From assembly GCA_004379165.1 (NCBI GenBank), contig NKXK01000025.1, positions 62,001 to 126,000 on the forward strand: a DNA stretch of 64,000 bases, written 5' to 3'. Within the stretch, counting starts at the first letter, position 1. Each line of letters begins with the position of its first letter. The translations under genes were made by a program, and so were the position numbers. Below the pieces are notes generated by a model. The model made no database searches, had not been told where the DNA came from, and worked only from the letters and a program-made list of their open reading frames with translations. Source of the stretch: Rhodocyclaceae bacterium (GTDB lineage Bacteria > Pseudomonadota > Gammaproteobacteria > Burkholderiales > Rhodocyclaceae). Positions 3,734-33,749 of the stretch are shown here, piece by piece.

Positions 3734-6331
3734 GTGCTTGAAGCCTATCGCGCCCACGTTGCAGAGCGTGCAGCCCTTGGTATCCCCCCGCTGCCCCTGT
3801 CCAAGCAACAGACCACCGAACTGGTGGCCCTGCTGAAGAATCCCCCGGCTGGCGAAGAAGCCAACCTGGTCGAGCTGATCACCTACCGCGTGCCGGCTGG
3901 CGTGGATGATGCCGCCAAGGTCAAGGCCGAGTTCCTGGCCAAGGTCGCCAAGGGTGAAGAAGCCTGCGCGCTGATCTCCAAGGAAAAGGCGACCGAACTG
4001 CTCGGCACCATGCTCGGCGGTTACAACGTCAAGCCGCTGATCGACCTGCTGGCTTGCGGCACCTGCGGCGCCGTCGCCGCCGAAGGCCTGAAGAAGACCC
4101 TGCTGGTTTTCGATTACTTCCACGATGTCGCAGAGCTGGCCGAGGCTGGCAACGCCAACGCCAAGGCCGTCATGCAGTCCTGGGCCGACGCCGAGTGGTT
4201 CACCTCGCGTCCGGAAGTCCCGGCTTCGCAGAAGCTGACCGTTTTCAAGGTCACCGGCGAAACCAACACCGATGACCTGTCGCCGGCGCCGGATGCCTGG
4301 TCGCGTCCGGACATCCCGCTGCACGCCTTGGCCATGCTGAAGAACCCGCGTCCAGGTATCGAAGCCGACGAGCCGGGTTCGCGCGGCCCGATCAAGCAAC
4401 TTGAAGCGCTGGCCAAGAAGGGCAACCTGATCGCCTACGTCGGTGACGTGGTCGGTACCGGTTCCTCCCGCAAGTCCGCCACCAACTCGGTGCTGTGGTT
4501 CACCGGCGAAGACATCCCGTACGTTCCGAACAAGCGCTTCGGCGGCGTCTGTCTGGGCTCCAAGATCGCCCCGATCTTCTTCAACACCATGGAAGATGCT
4601 GGCGCCCTGCCGATCGAAATCGACGCCGGCCAGATGGACATGGGCGACGAGATCGAACTGAAGGTTGACGGCGCTTCGGGCAAGGTCACCGCCACCAAGA
4701 ACGGTGCCGTGATCGCCGAATCCCAGCTCAAGACCCTCGTCATCCTCGACGAAGTCCGCGCTGGCGGTCGTATCCCCCTGATCATCGGTCGTGGCCTCAC
4801 CGCCAAGGCCCGTGAAGCCCTGGGTCTGCCGGCTTCCACCCTGTTCCGTCTGCCGCAGCAGCCGAACGATCCGGGTACCGGCTACTCGCTGGCCCAGAAG
4901 ATGGTCGGCCGCGCCTGTGGCCTGCCGGAAGCCAAGGGCATCCTGCCGGGTACCTACTGCGAACCGAAGATGACCACCGTCGGTTCCCAGGATACCACCG
5001 GCCCGATGACCCGCGACGAACTGAAGGATCTGGCCTGCCTCGGCTTCTCCGCCGACATGGTCATGCAGTCCTTCTGCCACACCGCCGCCTATCCGAAGCT
5101 GGTCGACGTTAAGATGCACCGCGAACTGCCGACCTTCATCGCCAACCGTGGCGGCGTTGCGCTGCGTCCGGGCGACGGCGTTATCCACTCCTGGCTGAAC
5201 CGCCTGCTGTTGCCGGATACCGTCGGTACCGGTGGCGACTCGCACACCCGCTTCCCGATCGGCATCTCCTTCCCAGCCGGTTCCGGCCTGGTCGCCTTTG
5301 CCGCCGCCACGGGCGTCATGCCGCTGGACATGCCGGAATCCGTGCTGGTCCGCTTCAAGGGCAAGATGCAAGACGGCATCACCCTGCGCGACCTGGTTAA
5401 CGCCATTCCACTGTGGGCCATCAAGCAGGGCCTGCTGACCGTCGAGAAGAAGGGCAAGAAGAACATCTTCTCCGGCCGCATCCTCGAAATCGAAGGTCTG
5501 CCGGATCTGAAGGTCGAACAGGCCTTCGAACTGTCCGACGCCGCCGCCGAGCGTTCCGCTGCCGCTTGCGCCATCGCCTTGAATAAGGCCCCGGTGGTCG
5601 AGTACATGCGTTCCAACATCACCCTGATGAAGTGGATGATCGCCGAAGGTTACTCGGATGCCCGCACCCTGAAGCGCCGCATCAAGTCGATGGAAGACTG
5701 GATCGCCAACGGCGAACTGCTGAAGGCTGATGCCAATGCCCAATACGCTGCCGTGATCGAGATCGATCTGGCCGAAGTCACCGAGCCGATCCTGGCCTGC
5801 CCGAACGATCCGGACGACGTTAAGGTCCTCTCCGAAGTCGCCGGCGACAAGATCGACGAAGTCTTCATCGGTTCCTGCATGACCAACATCGGTCACTTCC
5901 GTGCTGCTGGCAAGGTGCTGGACGGCAAGAGCGACATCCCGGCTCGTCTGTGGATCGCCCCGCCGACCAAGATGGATGCCCTGATCCTGACCGAAGAAGG
6001 CTACTACAGCGTTCTCGGCAAGGCCGGTGCCCGCATGGAAATGCCGGGCTGCTCGCTGTGCATGGGTAACCAGGCACAGATCCGCAAGGGTTCCACCGCG
6101 ATCTCCACCTCCACCCGTAACTTCCCGAACCGTCTGGGCATCGACACTCGCGTCTACCTCGGCTCCGCCGAACTGGCTGCGATGTGCGCCCTGGCTGGTC
6201 GCATCGTGACCAAGGAAGAGTACATGGAGCAGATCAAGCTGGTGAACGCCAAGGCCGCCGACGTCTATCGCTATATGAACTTCGACCAGATTCCGGCCTT
6301 CGTTGAAGTGGCCGATACCGTCGAGATGTAA
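3734..6331 (+). CDS. acnB: Bifunctional aconitate hydratase 2 / 2-methylisocitrate dehydratase
   Basis: AcnB isomerises citrate to isocitrate in the TCA cycle, and in many bacteria also acts on 2-methylisocitrate. With the GTG start at 3734 the protein is 865 aa, exactly the E. coli AcnB length; AAAGGAAGTC lies just upstream. The track start at 3521 adds 71 unrelated residues. The N-terminus [19 protein letters not shown] is typical AcnB (HEAT-like domain), followed by the swivel domain ([16 protein letters not shown]). The cluster-ligand cysteines are in [12 protein letters not shown] and [11 protein letters not shown]. Codon use is strongly biased (CTG, AAG, ATC), suggesting high expression. 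A strong terminator follows. The 726-aa antisense ORF is a shadow. Confidence 0.98.
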
Positions 6332-6421: not shown

Positions 6422-6640
6422 TTAGTGGATGCTGCCGGCGCTGGCGCAGATGCGTTTTTCGTAGCGGTTCAGGGTGCGTTCGGCTTCATTGAGGTTACGC
6501 ACATAGCCGCCGTCGGGCAGGTTGGCGCAGGGCTGGTGGTTGGCGTAAATGCGAAAGCCACCGTCGCTGGGGCGGAGTACCACGCTGATACCGTTGATGA
6601 CCGTGCCGAGGCCCAACAGGCCTGCTGAAAATCGCTTCAT
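6422..6640 (-). CDS. 72-aa protein of unknown function, paralog of 47883-48101
   Basis: The protein MKRFSAGLLGLGTVINGISV.. has no domain I recognise. It aligns end to end with the product at 47883-48101. Shared blocks are RFS.G.LG.GTVING.SVV.RP, GFR..ANH.PC..LP.GGYVR and EAE..L.RY. Two independent copies with conserved spacing show that it is a real gene rather than a chance ORF. GGGAGCA precedes the ATG by about 7 nt. The hydrophobic N-terminus is too short and interrupted to be called a signal peptide. The single shared Cys and the NH.PC motif might bind a metal, but that is speculation. Confidence 0.7.
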   Translation of the reverse strand: MKRFSAGLLGLGTVINGISVVLRPSDGGFRIYANHQPCANLPDGGYVRNLNEAERTLNRYEKRICASAGSIH

Positions 6641-6880
6641 TCACGTGCTCCCATCGTTATCCGACTGTTGCCCAAAATGAAATTCCCGCGCGCCGGCGTG
6701 ATGCTGGACGCCGGGAGAGTCATCTTGCCCGATGGGTACGCGTGGGGCAAGTCCCGTTTTTTGCTGTTTCTTTATGTTGACCGCCGAATGCGCCAACGGT
6801 GCGGCTGTTCAACAAAAACTGGCGCTTTTTGCGCGATGGTGTAGAGTTAATTTAGGAAAGTCCGTTTTTGAGGTGGTTTC

Positions 6881-7126
6881 ATGGAAATTCGCTCCGTTAC
6901 GTCCAGCCTGAATGCCTTCACCGGGGTCAATGGTACTCAGGGTCAGGCGAGTCAGGTTCAGCAAAGTCAGCAGACGCAGCAGGGATCGCAAACTGAGGCG
7001 ACCCGGCAGGCCGAAAGGCGTGAGCCGCGTCCGGAGGAGCGCGTCGAGCGCACCGAAGAGCGTCCACGTCCGGTCACCAATGCGCTAGGCCAGCAAACTG
7101 GGACGCTGATCAACATTACTGCCTGA
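6881..7126 (+). CDS. Small Gln/Arg-rich protein with conserved C-terminal tag
   Basis: The 81-aa protein is low-complexity: a Gln-rich middle (QVQQSQQTQQGSQTEA) and then a charged Arg/Glu stretch (RPEERVERTEERPRP). It ends in VTNALGQQTGTLINITA. The next gene, 29 bp downstream, ends in the closely similar VVNSFGQPTGTLVNVTA. The two proteins otherwise differ, so the C-terminal 17 residues look like a functional tag. There is no signal peptide, membrane span or cysteine. The start ATG has AGGTGG about 5 nt upstream. I do not recognise a family; it may be a disordered partner of its neighbour. Confidence 0.65.
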   Translation: MEIRSVTSSLNAFTGVNGTQGQASQVQQSQQTQQGSQTEATRQAERREPRPEERVERTEERPRPVTNALGQQTGTLINITA

Positions 7127-7155
7127 CAGCGAGTTGAGGATGAAGAGGTAAGCTG

Positions 7156-7584
7156 ATGGCAATTGCTTCGGCATTGTCTTCCATGTTGGCGAGCGGTGGC
7201 CTTTTTGCGCAGATTCAGCAGCAACAGGCGCAGCGGAATGCCGAGCAGGCCGAGGCCAAAGCGAGGGCCTTGCAGGGGCAGGCGCGTAGCGCGCAGGTCG
7301 AGGCGGATCGGGCACAGGAAAGTGCCCGCTCGATCAAGGTGCAATCTGACCAGGCATCGGATGATGCCAGCCAGGCACGGCAGGGCTTGGCAGCGCTGAA
7401 GTCCCTGGGTGGGACGCAGGCGCAGTTTTCCGATCTGCGTGAGCAATTGGCAGCGATCAAGTCAGGTGCCGATACCAGTGTCAGCGCGAAAGCCGTGTCA
7501 GCGGCGGCATCCGGCATCGCTTTGGCACCGGTGGTCAATTCCTTCGGGCAACCGACCGGTACGCTGGTGAATGTCACCGCCTGA
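7156..7584 (+). CDS. Ala/Gln-rich coiled-coil protein with the same C-terminal tag
   Basis: The 142-aa protein begins with a short hydrophobic stretch (MAIASALSSMLASGGLFAQ). Residues 20 to about 75 are a heptad-rich, Ala/Gln/Glu coiled coil (QQQQAQRNAEQAEAKARA), followed by a second helical part. It ends in VVNSFGQPTGTLVNVTA, matching the tail of the protein encoded just upstream. AAGAGGTAAGC before the ATG serves as ribosome binding site. An intrinsic terminator 22 bp after the stop shows that this is the last gene of a two-gene unit. The function is unknown; the shared tail and linkage suggest that the two proteins meet the same partner. Confidence 0.7.
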   Translation: MAIASALSSMLASGGLFAQIQQQQAQRNAEQAEAKARALQGQARSAQVEADRAQESARSIKVQSDQASDDASQARQGLAALKSLGGTQAQFSDLREQLAAIKSGADTSVSAKAVSAAASGIALAPVVNSFGQPTGTLVNVTA

Positions 7585-7605
7585 ACCGCGCTGATGGGCT
7601 TCTCG

Positions 7606-7630
7606 GGGCGCTTCGGCGCCCTTGTTTTTT
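7606..7630 (+). terminator. Intrinsic terminator of the two-gene tag-protein unit
   Basis: GGGCGC-TTCG-GCGCCC is a perfect 6-bp stem with a stable UUCG loop, followed by TTGTTTTTT. Confidence 0.85.
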
Positions 7631-7692: not shown

Positions 7693-8076
7693 GTGCTTGA
7701 GAATCATTGGTGCGCGTCAGTCGATGCGACGATACAACTCCGAACCGGCTGCAACCCGCTGGAGCAGCATGGGCCGCAGGCGGTGATTGTTCATGCGGAT
7801 GCCTGGTCGCCGATCGAAGCGGTGGCGGATCCGCACGACATCAAACAGGTCGTCGATTATGAAGTGATTTTTCTGGCGATCCGGGCGCTGGAGGAAAATG
7901 ACCACTGTATCTGCCTGGAAAGCAGCATTCTTGAGGTGATGGATGCGATCTTCTCAATGCCGATCGTCAGCGAGGCGCTGGTTTCGATGCACAAGCCGCA
8001 TGTTTATAACGGCCAAGGAACGCCGGCGATTTCGCTGCGTCTGAAGCGTGCTCAGTGGGCGGCGATGCGTACATGA
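7693..8076 (+). CDS. Dihydroneopterin aldolase-like (FolB/FolX family) protein
   Basis: The C-terminal two thirds follow the FolB/FolX T-fold pattern. VDYEVIFLAIRAL aligns with the family's VDY..V...I, CICLESSILEVMDAIF with the hydrophobic helix, and VSMHKPHVYNG with the conserved V.V.KP strand. The protein is 127 aa, close to the usual 120. The GTG start at 7693 follows AAGAGGTCGTCA. Its stop overlaps the start of the DHFR-like gene by 4 bp (ATGA), so the two are translationally coupled. A standard folB would cleave dihydroneopterin in folate synthesis. The sequence is diverged, so an alternative pterin substrate is possible. Confidence 0.65.
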   Translation: MLENHWCASVDATIQLRTGCNPLEQHGPQAVIVHADAWSPIEAVADPHDIKQVVDYEVIFLAIRALEENDHCICLESSILEVMDAIFSMPIVSEALVSMHKPHVYNGQGTPAISLRLKRAQWAAMRT

Positions 8077-8591
8077 TCGCGGCAATCGGTGCGGTGGCGA
8101 GCAATGACATGCTCGGACTCGATAACTGGCTACCTTGGGATATCCCGGAAGAATTGGCCTATTTTGAGCGCACAGTTGCCGGCGCGGCGCTGGTTGTCGG
8201 TCGACTGACATATGAGTCCATGGATATCGTGCCAGTGGATACTTTTGTCGTGACCGGGCAGGAAAACTACGTGCTGCGGTCTGGCTGTCACCGCGTTGCC
8301 TCGGTCGAAGCTGGCTTGCGCCAGGCACTGGCGACCGGAAAGCCGGTGTTTGTCATCGGCGGGGCGTCGGTCTACGCTGCCGCCTGGCCTTACTGTGAGC
8401 GCTTTTTCCTTACCCGCATCGACAAGCCATTTGATGGGGATACCCGTTTTCCGGACAGCATTCCGCTCGATCGCTGGGCGGTGGTCGCTGATAGCCAGGC
8501 AAGCTATCTCGAACGGCGCAGCGGTGAACCGGTAATTTGTCGCTTTTTACAGTACGCGCAGCCCGACGTCAAATCGCTTAACGCGGCCTGA
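8073..8591 (+). CDS. Dihydrofolate reductase family protein
   Basis: Dihydrofolate reductase folds reduce dihydrofolate or related pterins with NADPH. The 172-aa protein from ATG 8073 (overlapping the previous stop as ATGA) begins MIAAIGAVASNDMLGLDNWL. It has the PWDIPEELAYF block with Glu at the usual catalytic acid position, the NADPH-binding GRLTYESM, and VFVIGGASVYAAA with the GG pair. Downstream, FFLTRID and DTRFPD match family strands. The track start at 8055 adds six residues and is less likely. Coupling to a FolB-like gene suggests a shared pterin pathway, either folate or a tetrahydromonapterin-like cofactor. Whether this is the cell's main FolA cannot be decided here. Confidence 0.8.
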   Translation: MIAAIGAVASNDMLGLDNWLPWDIPEELAYFERTVAGAALVVGRLTYESMDIVPVDTFVVTGQENYVLRSGCHRVASVEAGLRQALATGKPVFVIGGASVYAAAWPYCERFFLTRIDKPFDGDTRFPDSIPLDRWAVVADSQASYLERRSGEPVICRFLQYAQPDVKSLNAA

Positions 8592-30806: not shown

Positions 30807-33749
30807 TCAGCTGGCGCTGCCCATATCGTTCGACTGCGTGCAAATGCCGTAGATCAGCCCGTCATCGCCGATCAGCGGGAAGCGGATTGAGCGCAGCGTC
30901 CTCTCTGCACCATTGGCGAGCGTGATGCGCTCAATCGACTCGATGGCTTCCTGGCGACGTACGACCTCCAGTTCCTTGTCGCGGAATTCGCGGGCAATGC
31001 TTGCAGGCAGGGCTTGCGCATCGGTTTTGCCGACGAGTTCATAGCCATTGACCGCAAAAAAGGATTCGAAGCGACGATTGACGAATTCGTAGCGTCCGGC
31101 AAGATCCTTCATCGACACCAGAGAAACGGAGTTGTGGATGATCGCCAGCAGCTTGTCCTGTTCCTTGCGCAGTTCGCGCTCGCGGGAGAGGCGCTCGGTG
31201 TCGTCGACCAGCGTGATGATGATGCCCTGAAGGTTGCTGGTGGCGGTGCCATAAGGCGTCACGTTAAGCAGATAGCTCCGTTCATTGGAGAATACCGAGG
31301 TGGTGATGGTCTTGCGCTGGCTCAGCGCGTCCGCCACCTGCTTCCCAAATTCCTGCATCCCGGGCGGCAATTGCATGACGGTTAGCGGTTGCTGCAGCGA
31401 CGAGGCATTGAGACTGAAGAGCGATGCTGCCGGGGCGTTGAAGCGGAGCAGGCGGGCCGATTCGCTGCAAACGAGCAGCGGGTAGCTGATCGCGTTCTGT
31501 ACCTGTTCGAGATCGTTGAGGGCTTCTGCCAGTTCGTTGCTGCGAATCTGCAGTTCCTCGTTGACCGTGGTCAGTTCCTCGTTGGTCGATTGCAATTCCT
31601 CGTTGGCGGCTTCCAGTTCCTCGTTTGAAGACTGCAACTCCTCGTTAGCTGCCTGTACTTCCTCGTTCAACGCCTGCATTTCCTCGTTCGAGGTTTCCAG
31701 TTCCTCGATGACCGTTTGCAGGCGCTCACGGGTGGTCGTCAGCTCGTCCTCAAGGTCGCGTACCGAATGCGTGTCACCGGTCGCTTCAGAGGTAACCCGC
31801 TCACCCGGAGACTCTGGCGGTACTTTTTCGAAACTGACCAGAAACAGCTGGGACGACACGCCGTTTTCCATCGGGTGTACGGCCAGGCGGATGAATTGCT
31901 GCTCGCCATTGATCAGCATCGGACGCGGTCGGCCAGTCGCGGACTCCAGTTTCTGCTCGACATGATGCTGCAACAATTGCAGATCGGTACGCAGTTCCCG
32001 GCAGATCAGGTGTTGCAGGTTCAGCGTCGGTTTGCCCGGCGACAACGTGACGAAGGGCGAGGTGTCGCCGAAGATGTGTTGAATCTCGAAATTGCCGTTG
32101 ATCAGGATGGTGGCCGGCAGATAGCGGCGCATTGCCGCTGACAGCAACTGCTGCTCGGCTTCCGGCTGGCGGGTCGTGTTCCCCGAAGGGATCGAGCCCA
32201 GCGACGGGAACTGGAAGCCGCCGGCCGGCAGGCGATTTTCCATGCCACGGCGGCGGAACAGCCGTGACACTTTGTCGACGACATCGAACAGGCCGTCCTG
32301 CTGGAACACGCCCTCGGATTTGCCGAGGAAGAGCAGACCGCCGGGACGCAAACCATAGTGGAAGGTGCTGAAGATCTTGGCCTGCAGGTCGTTCTTGAGA
32401 TAAATCAGCACATTCCGGCAACTGATCAGGTCAAGACGGAGAAATGGCGGGTCCTGCACCAGATCCTGGCGGGCAAAAACCACCATTTCGCGCAGGGTCC
32501 GTGAAATTTCAAAGCGTCCGCGCTGTGCCTGGAAGTAGCGCGACAGCAGGGCCGGTTTCAGTTCCGCCAGCGAGCCTTCCGAATACAGCCCGCGGCGGGC
32601 AAAATTCATGGCCTCGTTGTCGAGGTCGGTGGCGAAGATCTGGATTTTGTAGAGCGATGCCGACGCTCCCAGCATTTCGGAGAGCAGGATGGCAATGCTG
32701 TAGGCCTCTTCGCCGGTGGCGCAGCCCGGTACCCAGATCCGGATTTCATCGCCTGGTTGTTTGCCCTTGAACAGTACCGGCAATTGGCTGGCCAGCACCT
32801 CAAAGGCATCCGGGTCACGGAAAAAGGCTGTGACCGAAATCAGGATGTCTTTCGCCAGCCGATCGAGTTCGTCCGGTTGGCTTTCGGTCAGCATCAGATA
32901 ATCCTCGATCGAGAAAACGTGATTGGCCGCCATGCGGCGCTCGATCCGGCGCCAGATGGTCGCTTCCTTGTAGCCCCCAAAGTCGATGCGGGTGTATTGC
33001 TTGACCTTGAGCAGCAGTTTCTTGATCGTGGTCGCCGGTTGCTGGGTGGTATGCGCCGGCGGCTTGAGGGCGACGCCGCGGTTGCGGGTGATATTGGCAA
33101 TTTCTGCCGCGATGCTCTCGGGCGGAAGGACCCAGTCTACGCAGCCAGCGTCGATTGCCGACTGAGGCATACCACCGTATTTGGCCGTGCCCGGCTCCTG
33201 GGCGAAGGTGAAACCGCCCGACGCCTTGATTTCGCGCAGTCCAACCGTTCCATCGGATCCTGTTCCGGACAAGATGACACCGATGGCATCCTCACCCAGA
33301 TCGGCGGCCAGCGAACTGAAAAAAACATTGACCGAGGGCTTGGGCAAAGCTTCACGGACGGTTTCAAGGAGAACGAACTGGCCGTCACGAATGATGACAT
33401 TGCGGCTGGCGGGAGCGACATAGACGATGTCTGCTTCGGGTTTGGCACCATCTTCCACTTCGCGCACCGCCATTGCGGTTTCACGGCCGAGCAGTTGCAC
33501 CATCATGCTGCGGTGGGTGGGCGACAGATGCTGGACGACGACATAGCTGTTGCCGAGGTCAACGGGCAACGCCCCGATCATCGCCGAGAGTGCCTCCAGT
33601 CCACCGGCAGAGGCGCCGATGCCGACGACGTGTGGTTGCTTCACAATTGATCGGCCAGGGGCGGCTGGGAGTTCGCTGGAAGTTTCGGAAATACTTTCGG
33701 ATTTCGAAGACCGCGGTTTGCGGGGGGCTTTTTCGGTGTCTTTCGCCAT
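30807..33749 (-). CDS. CheB-CheR-PAS fusion signalling protein
   Basis: This 980-aa protein joins a CheB methylesterase domain and a CheR methyltransferase domain. CheB covers ~40-225, with catalytic Ser in GIGASAGGLEA, His in VVQHLSPTHRS and Asp in LSGTGSDGTVG. CheR covers ~240-500, with the SAM site RIWVPGCATGEEAYSIA. A long coiled coil (~635-730) is built from NEELQ/NEEVQ repeats, then come a PAS domain (~740-850) and a second PAS (~855-975). There is no receiver domain on CheB and no kinase module at the end, unlike many relatives. All catalytic residues seen are intact. No chemoreceptor genes are near, so it may act on a distant or non-chemotaxis pathway. Confidence 0.93.
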   Translation of the reverse strand: MAKDTEKAPRKPRSSKSESISETSSELPAAPGRSIVKQPHVVGIGASAGGLEALSAMIGALPVDLGNSYVVVQHLSPTHRSMMVQLLGRETAMAVREVEDGAKPEADIVYVAPASRNVIIRDGQFVLLETVREALPKPSVNVFFSSLAADLGEDAIGVILSGTGSDGTVGLREIKASGGFTFAQEPGTAKYGGMPQSAIDAGCVDWVLPPESIAAEIANITRNRGVALKPPAHTTQQPATTIKKLLLKVKQYTRIDFGGYKEATIWRRIERRMAANHVFSIEDYLMLTESQPDELDRLAKDILISVTAFFRDPDAFEVLASQLPVLFKGKQPGDEIRIWVPGCATGEEAYSIAILLSEMLGASASLYKIQIFATDLDNEAMNFARRGLYSEGSLAELKPALLSRYFQAQRGRFEISRTLREMVVFARQDLVQDPPFLRLDLISCRNVLIYLKNDLQAKIFSTFHYGLRPGGLLFLGKSEGVFQQDGLFDVVDKVSRLFRRRGMENRLPAGGFQFPSLGSIPSGNTTRQPEAEQQLLSAAMRRYLPATILINGNFEIQHIFGDTSPFVTLSPGKPTLNLQHLICRELRTDLQLLQHHVEQKLESATGRPRPMLINGEQQFIRLAVHPMENGVSSQLFLVSFEKVPPESPGERVTSEATGDTHSVRDLEDELTTTRERLQTVIEELETSNEEMQALNEEVQAANEELQSSNEELEAANEELQSTNEELTTVNEELQIRSNELAEALNDLEQVQNAISYPLLVCSESARLLRFNAPAASLFSLNASSLQQPLTVMQLPPGMQEFGKQVADALSQRKTITTSVFSNERSYLLNVTPYGTATSNLQGIIITLVDDTERLSRERELRKEQDKLLAIIHNSVSLVSMKDLAGRYEFVNRRFESFFAVNGYELVGKTDAQALPASIAREFRDKELEVVRRQEAIESIERITLANGAERTLRSIRFPLIGDDGLIYGICTQSNDMGSAS

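Follow-up and report, generated by a model that had tools for sequence, protein, structure and literature searches.

The two genes and their common tail

The stretch of 64,000 nucleotides analysed here (the window), which derives from a Rhodocyclaceae bacterium, carries two adjacent small genes on its forward strand. Gene A (6881–7126) encodes a disordered protein of 81 residues rich in Gln, Arg and Glu, and gene B (7156–7584) a protein of 142 residues with an alanine-heptad coiled coil; both open reading frames and their shared C-terminal tails are as described in the initial annotation. Relatives of gene A were found in at least 13 genomes of the window's genus, and relatives of gene B adjoining an A gene in many genera. 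Judged by their substitution rates, both are real, constrained genes, because dN/dS in comparison with the relative L050 is 0.14 for gene A and 0.10 for gene B.

Upstream of gene A lies a conserved promoter-like element on the + strand (CTGGCG, a 17-nt spacer and TAGAGT; 6819–6847) with sigma-70 spacing, located 62 nt before the ATG. The corresponding element CTGGMA-N-RTGGTRTARAGT is present at -58 to -64 in approximately 20 related loci from several genera. With 0 mismatches, the element of gene A occurs a single time in the window's genome, upstream of A only, and a genus promoter marking a regulon was rejected because the element is specific to gene A. A promoter motif search revealed no enrichment of sigma-54 or canonical sigma-70 motifs. 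The proposal that the two genes form a unit with its own terminator is in line with a hairpin and T-run resembling a terminator downstream of gene B (7605–7622, + strand), one of 2 such structures found in the terminator scan of the region versus a shuffle average of 1.1. No Rfam match was obtained at the locus.

The genes around the pair are not conserved beyond the genus. Genes for dihydroneopterin aldolase (FolB) and dihydrofolate reductase follow directly downstream (7693–8591), and the pair adjoins these folate genes in much of the genus. Between acnB and gene A, a 72-aa open reading frame without Pfam match is located on the - strand (6422–6640). Outside the genus no conserved neighbours were observed, and the adjacent genes are unrelated between lineages. 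It had been suggested that carriers of the tail might cluster near a common transporter or processing enzyme. The respective search did not bear this out: a Pfam scan of 125 neighbouring proteins yielded 203 Pfam families, none of them in more than 4, and no recurring transporter or processing gene.

The tail of A is PVTNALGQQTGTLINITA-stop (7070–7126, + strand), that of B, which aligns to it, PVVNSFGQPTGTLVNVTA-stop (7528–7584, + strand). The DNA pattern for tail plus stop matches the window twice, at 7079–7126 and 7537–7584, while 0 matches are expected from 100 dinucleotide shuffles. These two matches are identical at 32/48 nucleotides and differ by 6 synonymous codon changes and are therefore not the result of a recent DNA copy. 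BLASTP of A against B aligned only residues 64–81 of A with 125–142 of B (12/18 identical, E=2e-7 for this pair). In the profile-profile comparison of the A group with the B group, likewise only the last 22 columns aligned (97.8%, E=1.2e-12, a value inflated by the use of the tail pattern to collect the members). Alignment throughout, as of simple paralogs, was what the initial annotation had named as evidence against its own reading; it was not observed.

Across the family, the tail follows an 18-residue consensus, P-V-[VT]-N-x-x-G-Q-x-[TVI]-G-x-x-[IV]-N-x-[TS]-A-stop. It is the most conserved part of the proteins, is located at their extreme end nearly always and across many genera, and is conserved to the last residue, after which any of the three stop codons may follow. 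Because N, G, Q, G, N and A are prescribed by the search pattern, the invariance of these residues is partly circular. Other positions are left free by the pattern, and of these P at -18, V at -17, T/V/I at -9, I/V at -5 and T at -2 are conserved. Partner genes beside members, collected independently of the strict pattern, show rare variants, for example GE for GQ and S or D for N.

Structures were predicted with AF2 for A and B, each as a single chain and from 4-row alignments, with low confidence outside the helix and the hairpin described here. A was modelled as a disordered chain except for its tail, in which a beta-hairpin was predicted at 63–66/72–76 (block pLDDT 85–88). For B, the model contains a single helix of approximately 99 residues (residues 4–102; 7165–7461, + strand; core pLDDT mostly 80–92) whose Ala/Leu residues follow heptad a/d spacing; the tail of B was modelled with weak strands. 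In alignment A2, the Ala columns 25, 29, 32, 36, 43, 50, 57 and 67 of B are invariant.

Architecture and distribution of the family

A and B share a second element at the opposite end of the chain. The N-terminus of A, MEIRSVTSS (6881–6907, + strand), represents the motif M-x-[IV]-x-S-[VI]-x-S-S derived from a profile of 109 A proteins, and B starts with MAIASALSS (7156–7182, + strand). On the A profile, B N-termini outscore shuffled versions of themselves (p=6e-8), i.e. beyond what composition provides. The initial annotation had regarded the two proteins as unrelated and the rest of their chains as different. The middles indeed do not align, and A and B have only the last 18–22 residues or so and the short N-terminal motif in common; given this motif, the term unrelated no longer fits, and the two are more aptly seen as a single family whose middles have been exchanged.

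Most A proteins comprise 60–95 aa and consist of the N-terminal motif, a variable Gln/Ala-rich or acidic middle and the tail; a clearly hydrophobic stretch was seen in only 1/161 of them. B proteins mostly have 120–150 aa with an alanine/leucine heptad coil. Many A proteins without a B neighbour (L104, L129, L216, L252 and similar loci) contain an acidic D-x-D-G-D-x-D-D stretch that resembles a calcium-binding loop. In L222 (G786) and L242 (G856), the same tail is joined to a different coil with QDQ/ARLQ repeats, apparently an independent coiled-coil middle.

The family falls into two branches. B adjoins A in 37/40 cases, and B follows the paired A gene in 25 instances and precedes it in 13; since both orders are seen in two bacterial families, the adjacency has been kept although the order changed. 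Position -9 of the tail is T in 37/38 paired A proteins and in 36/40 B proteins, and V/I/L in 83/122 solo A proteins. The pair of the window belongs to the T type.

That other proteins carry the tail is evident from its distribution. In the window's own family, Rhodocyclaceae, it was detected in 69/220 genomes and 29/68 genera, in another family of the same order (f205) in 51/158 genomes, and in an order-wide survey in 19/250 genomes. Outside the order, none of approximately 366 genomes had it (even class sample of 369 genomes, only 4 of them within the order), the only match being the window's own genome. The reversed-pattern control gave zero matches in all four surveys. Plasmid and phage records contained no tail carriers. 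Among 11 pattern matches in IMG/VR, only L092 (IMGVR_UViG_2599185173_000003, 4003–4290) is a true member; it is of the solo type and lies on a contig classed as viral that may be host DNA flanking a prophage.

Sigma-28 promoters and flagella

A considerable part of the solo branch is preceded by sigma-28 promoters. Scoring with the published consensus TAAAG-N14-GCCGATAA (PMC2859248) identified sites with 12–13 of 13 consensus bases upstream of 27/53 tailed genes of f205 (27/51 unique A genes). They are located 68–86 nt before the start, and shuffles and the antisense strand gave 0/53. All 27 genes are of the V/I/L type; no paired (T-type) gene has such a site. Within the first 2.6 Mb of context, both strands included, perfect sites were confined to the upstream regions of these tailed genes. 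Sites also precede tailed genes of other families in L224 and L226, the latter gene probably starting at an upstream GTG. As a positive control, flgM of G519 and G823, named from sequence, has the same kind of site.

The solo branch is also associated with flagella in its occurrence. FlhA is present in 51/51 tail-positive f205 genomes versus 64/107 tail-negative ones (p=1.7e-9, kinship ignored), and in genomes at least 90% complete in 31/31 versus 43/63 (p=1e-4, kinship ignored). The link was also seen within two f205 genera (p=0.005 and 0.011). Both marks of the late flagellar (sigma-28/FliA) regulon, namely placement and orientation of the promoter and, in f205, occurrence only together with flagella, are thus found in the solo branch, and a late (sigma-28) flagellar gene is the best reading of it.

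A weaker indication comes from the N-terminus. When the A profile was run over 1732 candidate starts from five flagellar regions, known flagellar export substrates came out near the top, and the first 30 included FlgK, FliD, FlgM, two FliK, FliC, two FlaG and FliE as identified by Pfam, a soft resemblance because flagellar N-termini vary, are Ser-rich and were picked out of this list. Near the flagellar region of G476, a large ALTTAQ-repeat protein with 41 repeats (L306, 15259–19998) also has an A-like N-terminus. None of the family genes is situated in a flagellar operon.

The findings for the window itself differ from those for the solo branch. Its A+B pair shows neither mark of the late flagellar regulon, which would be a sigma-28 promoter and, elsewhere in its genome, flagellar genes. 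No sigma-28 site precedes the pair, and no A gene of Rhodocyclaceae has a clear one. The window's genome gave no matches to FlhA or the Flg rod domain, and 464 kb sampled from it contained no flagellar genes. G533, also T-type and tail-positive, likewise lacks FlhA and rod matches. As the window's genome (G000) is a 95% complete draft, a flagellar cluster is possibly missing from the assembly; either the draft misses this cluster, or the window's branch works without flagella. Across the Rhodocyclaceae genomes compared, the tail shows no association with FlhA (34/36 tail-positive versus 31/36 tail-negative genomes, p=0.43), and FlhA is an uninformative marker in this family given that nearly all of its genomes have it. 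On the - strand, the window encodes a fused CheB-CheR chemotaxis-type protein (31500–33629) in this genome without FlhA or rod gene matches.

Proposed explanation and comparison with known families

We tentatively propose that the family combines three parts: an N-terminus similar to those of flagellar export substrates, a rapidly evolving middle and, at the C-terminus, a beta-hairpin of 18 residues, which would dock onto one common partner. The solo product would probably be exported by the flagellum or act at it, and the window's A+B pair may represent a sister branch that is no longer part of the sigma-28 regulon. Within the pair, A might be a flexible linker and B a coiled rod, with the shared tail bringing both to the same site. 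A recognition or assembly element, as the initial annotation had considered, is the natural reading of a tail that is conserved in many genera, protein-terminal and present on two otherwise different chains. A sorting tag on many cargos was rejected, because every readable carrier is a small protein of the A or the B kind. Rather doubtful, in our estimate, is the further-reaching idea of a docking system of a kind new to current models, in which one hairpin recruits two physically different bodies, the floppy linker and the rigid coil, to a single receptor situated at the flagellum, at the cell pole or close to either; the solo form would then add a new component to the late flagellar regulon of many genomes in this order (Betaproteobacteria-type).

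It is also conceivable, if fairly unlikely, that the hairpins of the tails bind to one another, that A and the B coil in this way build a small scaffold or fibre and that the flagellar timing of the solo genes merely reflects when it is needed. The common T at -9 in pair members, the predicted hairpin and the regular Ala/Leu heptads of B would suit such self-assembly; many genomes, however, have solo A proteins without a visible B, the AF2 models cover single chains only, and no known assembly family is matched. Improbable is the simpler view of ordinary tandem paralogs whose low-complexity middles diverged and whose tail has no special role. It would account for the tandem arrangement and for the two ends common to A and B, but not for middles that do not align, for a pair adjacent in either order across two families or for a tail more conserved than anything else in the proteins.

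Two further explanations assign a different function to the tail. We judge it quite improbable that the tail directs secretion or sorting by a transporter or processing enzyme of its own: its strict conservation as far as the terminal residue, with any of the three stop codons following, favours such a C-terminal signal, but a recurring neighbour gene is missing, the carriers are limited to two kinds of small proteins and have a conserved N-terminus as well, and none was found on plasmids or phages. Very unlikely is a role of the proteins as cytoplasmic regulators, with the tail as a degron or adaptor site through which the amount of a disordered, FlgM-like regulator is controlled. Small size, disorder, the sigma-28 control of one branch and an invariant small C-terminal residue (among the collected tails, and partly imposed by the search pattern) point in this direction. 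Against it, a stretch of 15–18 conserved residues is longer than would suit a degron, B forms a stable coil, and the A proteins have nothing like the FlgM helical domain and no Pfam match.

Members of the family occur in about one third of the genomes of two bacterial families, and current domain libraries contain no match to it. The solo branch bears the marks of a late flagellar gene and would thereby extend the parts list of one of the best-studied bacterial machines. The tail of the matched disordered and coiled pair offers a simple handle for finding the partner, and if the window's genome is truly without flagella, it would illustrate how such a part can be retained for a different purpose.

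For A and B, sequence searches of Pfam, NCBIfam, PHROGs, PADLOC and PDB returned no match that was significant or exceeded the cut-off, with only weak coiled-coil matches in PADLOC and PHROGs, and the literature searches with the tail strings tried found no mention. An anti-phage or phage-encoded system was rejected in view of these merely weak PADLOC/PHROGs matches and the lack of phage and plasmid records, L092 being the single real IMG/VR member. The only match of a PDB profile search with the A family was a hairpin of ribosomal protein uL14, 'LLNANGQPIGTRI' (NANGQPIGTRI; E=0.79, not significant), and a hairpin of avidin, 'AVNSRGEFTGTYIT', also resembles the tail (E=2.7, not significant). 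Both have the N-x-x-G-x-x-x-G-T turn in common with the tail but are not C-terminal and indicate a common hairpin geometry at most. Shared geometry is probably also the reason for the likeness to uL14, although mimicry of uL14 by the tail (7070–7123) is possible.

Lpp and OprI are alanine-zipper lipoproteins with an Ala-rich heptad coil, a signal peptide, a lipobox cysteine and a C-terminal Lys. B has a similar coil, followed by the tail, but no signal peptide, lipobox cysteine or C-terminal Lys, and a murein lipoprotein of this type was rejected because B proteins essentially lack Cys and have the motif at their very start. PEP-CTERM and type I secretion tails are C-terminal sorting signals in which a short conserved C-terminus is attached to variable bodies. 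The family resembles them in this respect; in contrast to them, it lacks a transmembrane segment, a basic cluster and a linked enzyme and comprises two protein kinds only.

FlgM, FlaG, FliE and the N-terminus of FliK are likewise small, Ser/Gln/Ala-rich and disordered with similar first residues, and flgM has a sigma-28 promoter as in the solo branch. Unlike FlgM, FlaG and FliE, the family possesses a conserved C-terminal hairpin, sits outside flagellar operons and contains no such domain above cut-off; membership in FlgM or FlaG was rejected on this ground, the best FlaG match reaching 15.6 bits versus a cut-off of 154. We group the family with the small late flagellar proteins, although the pair of the window itself shows neither flagellar mark.
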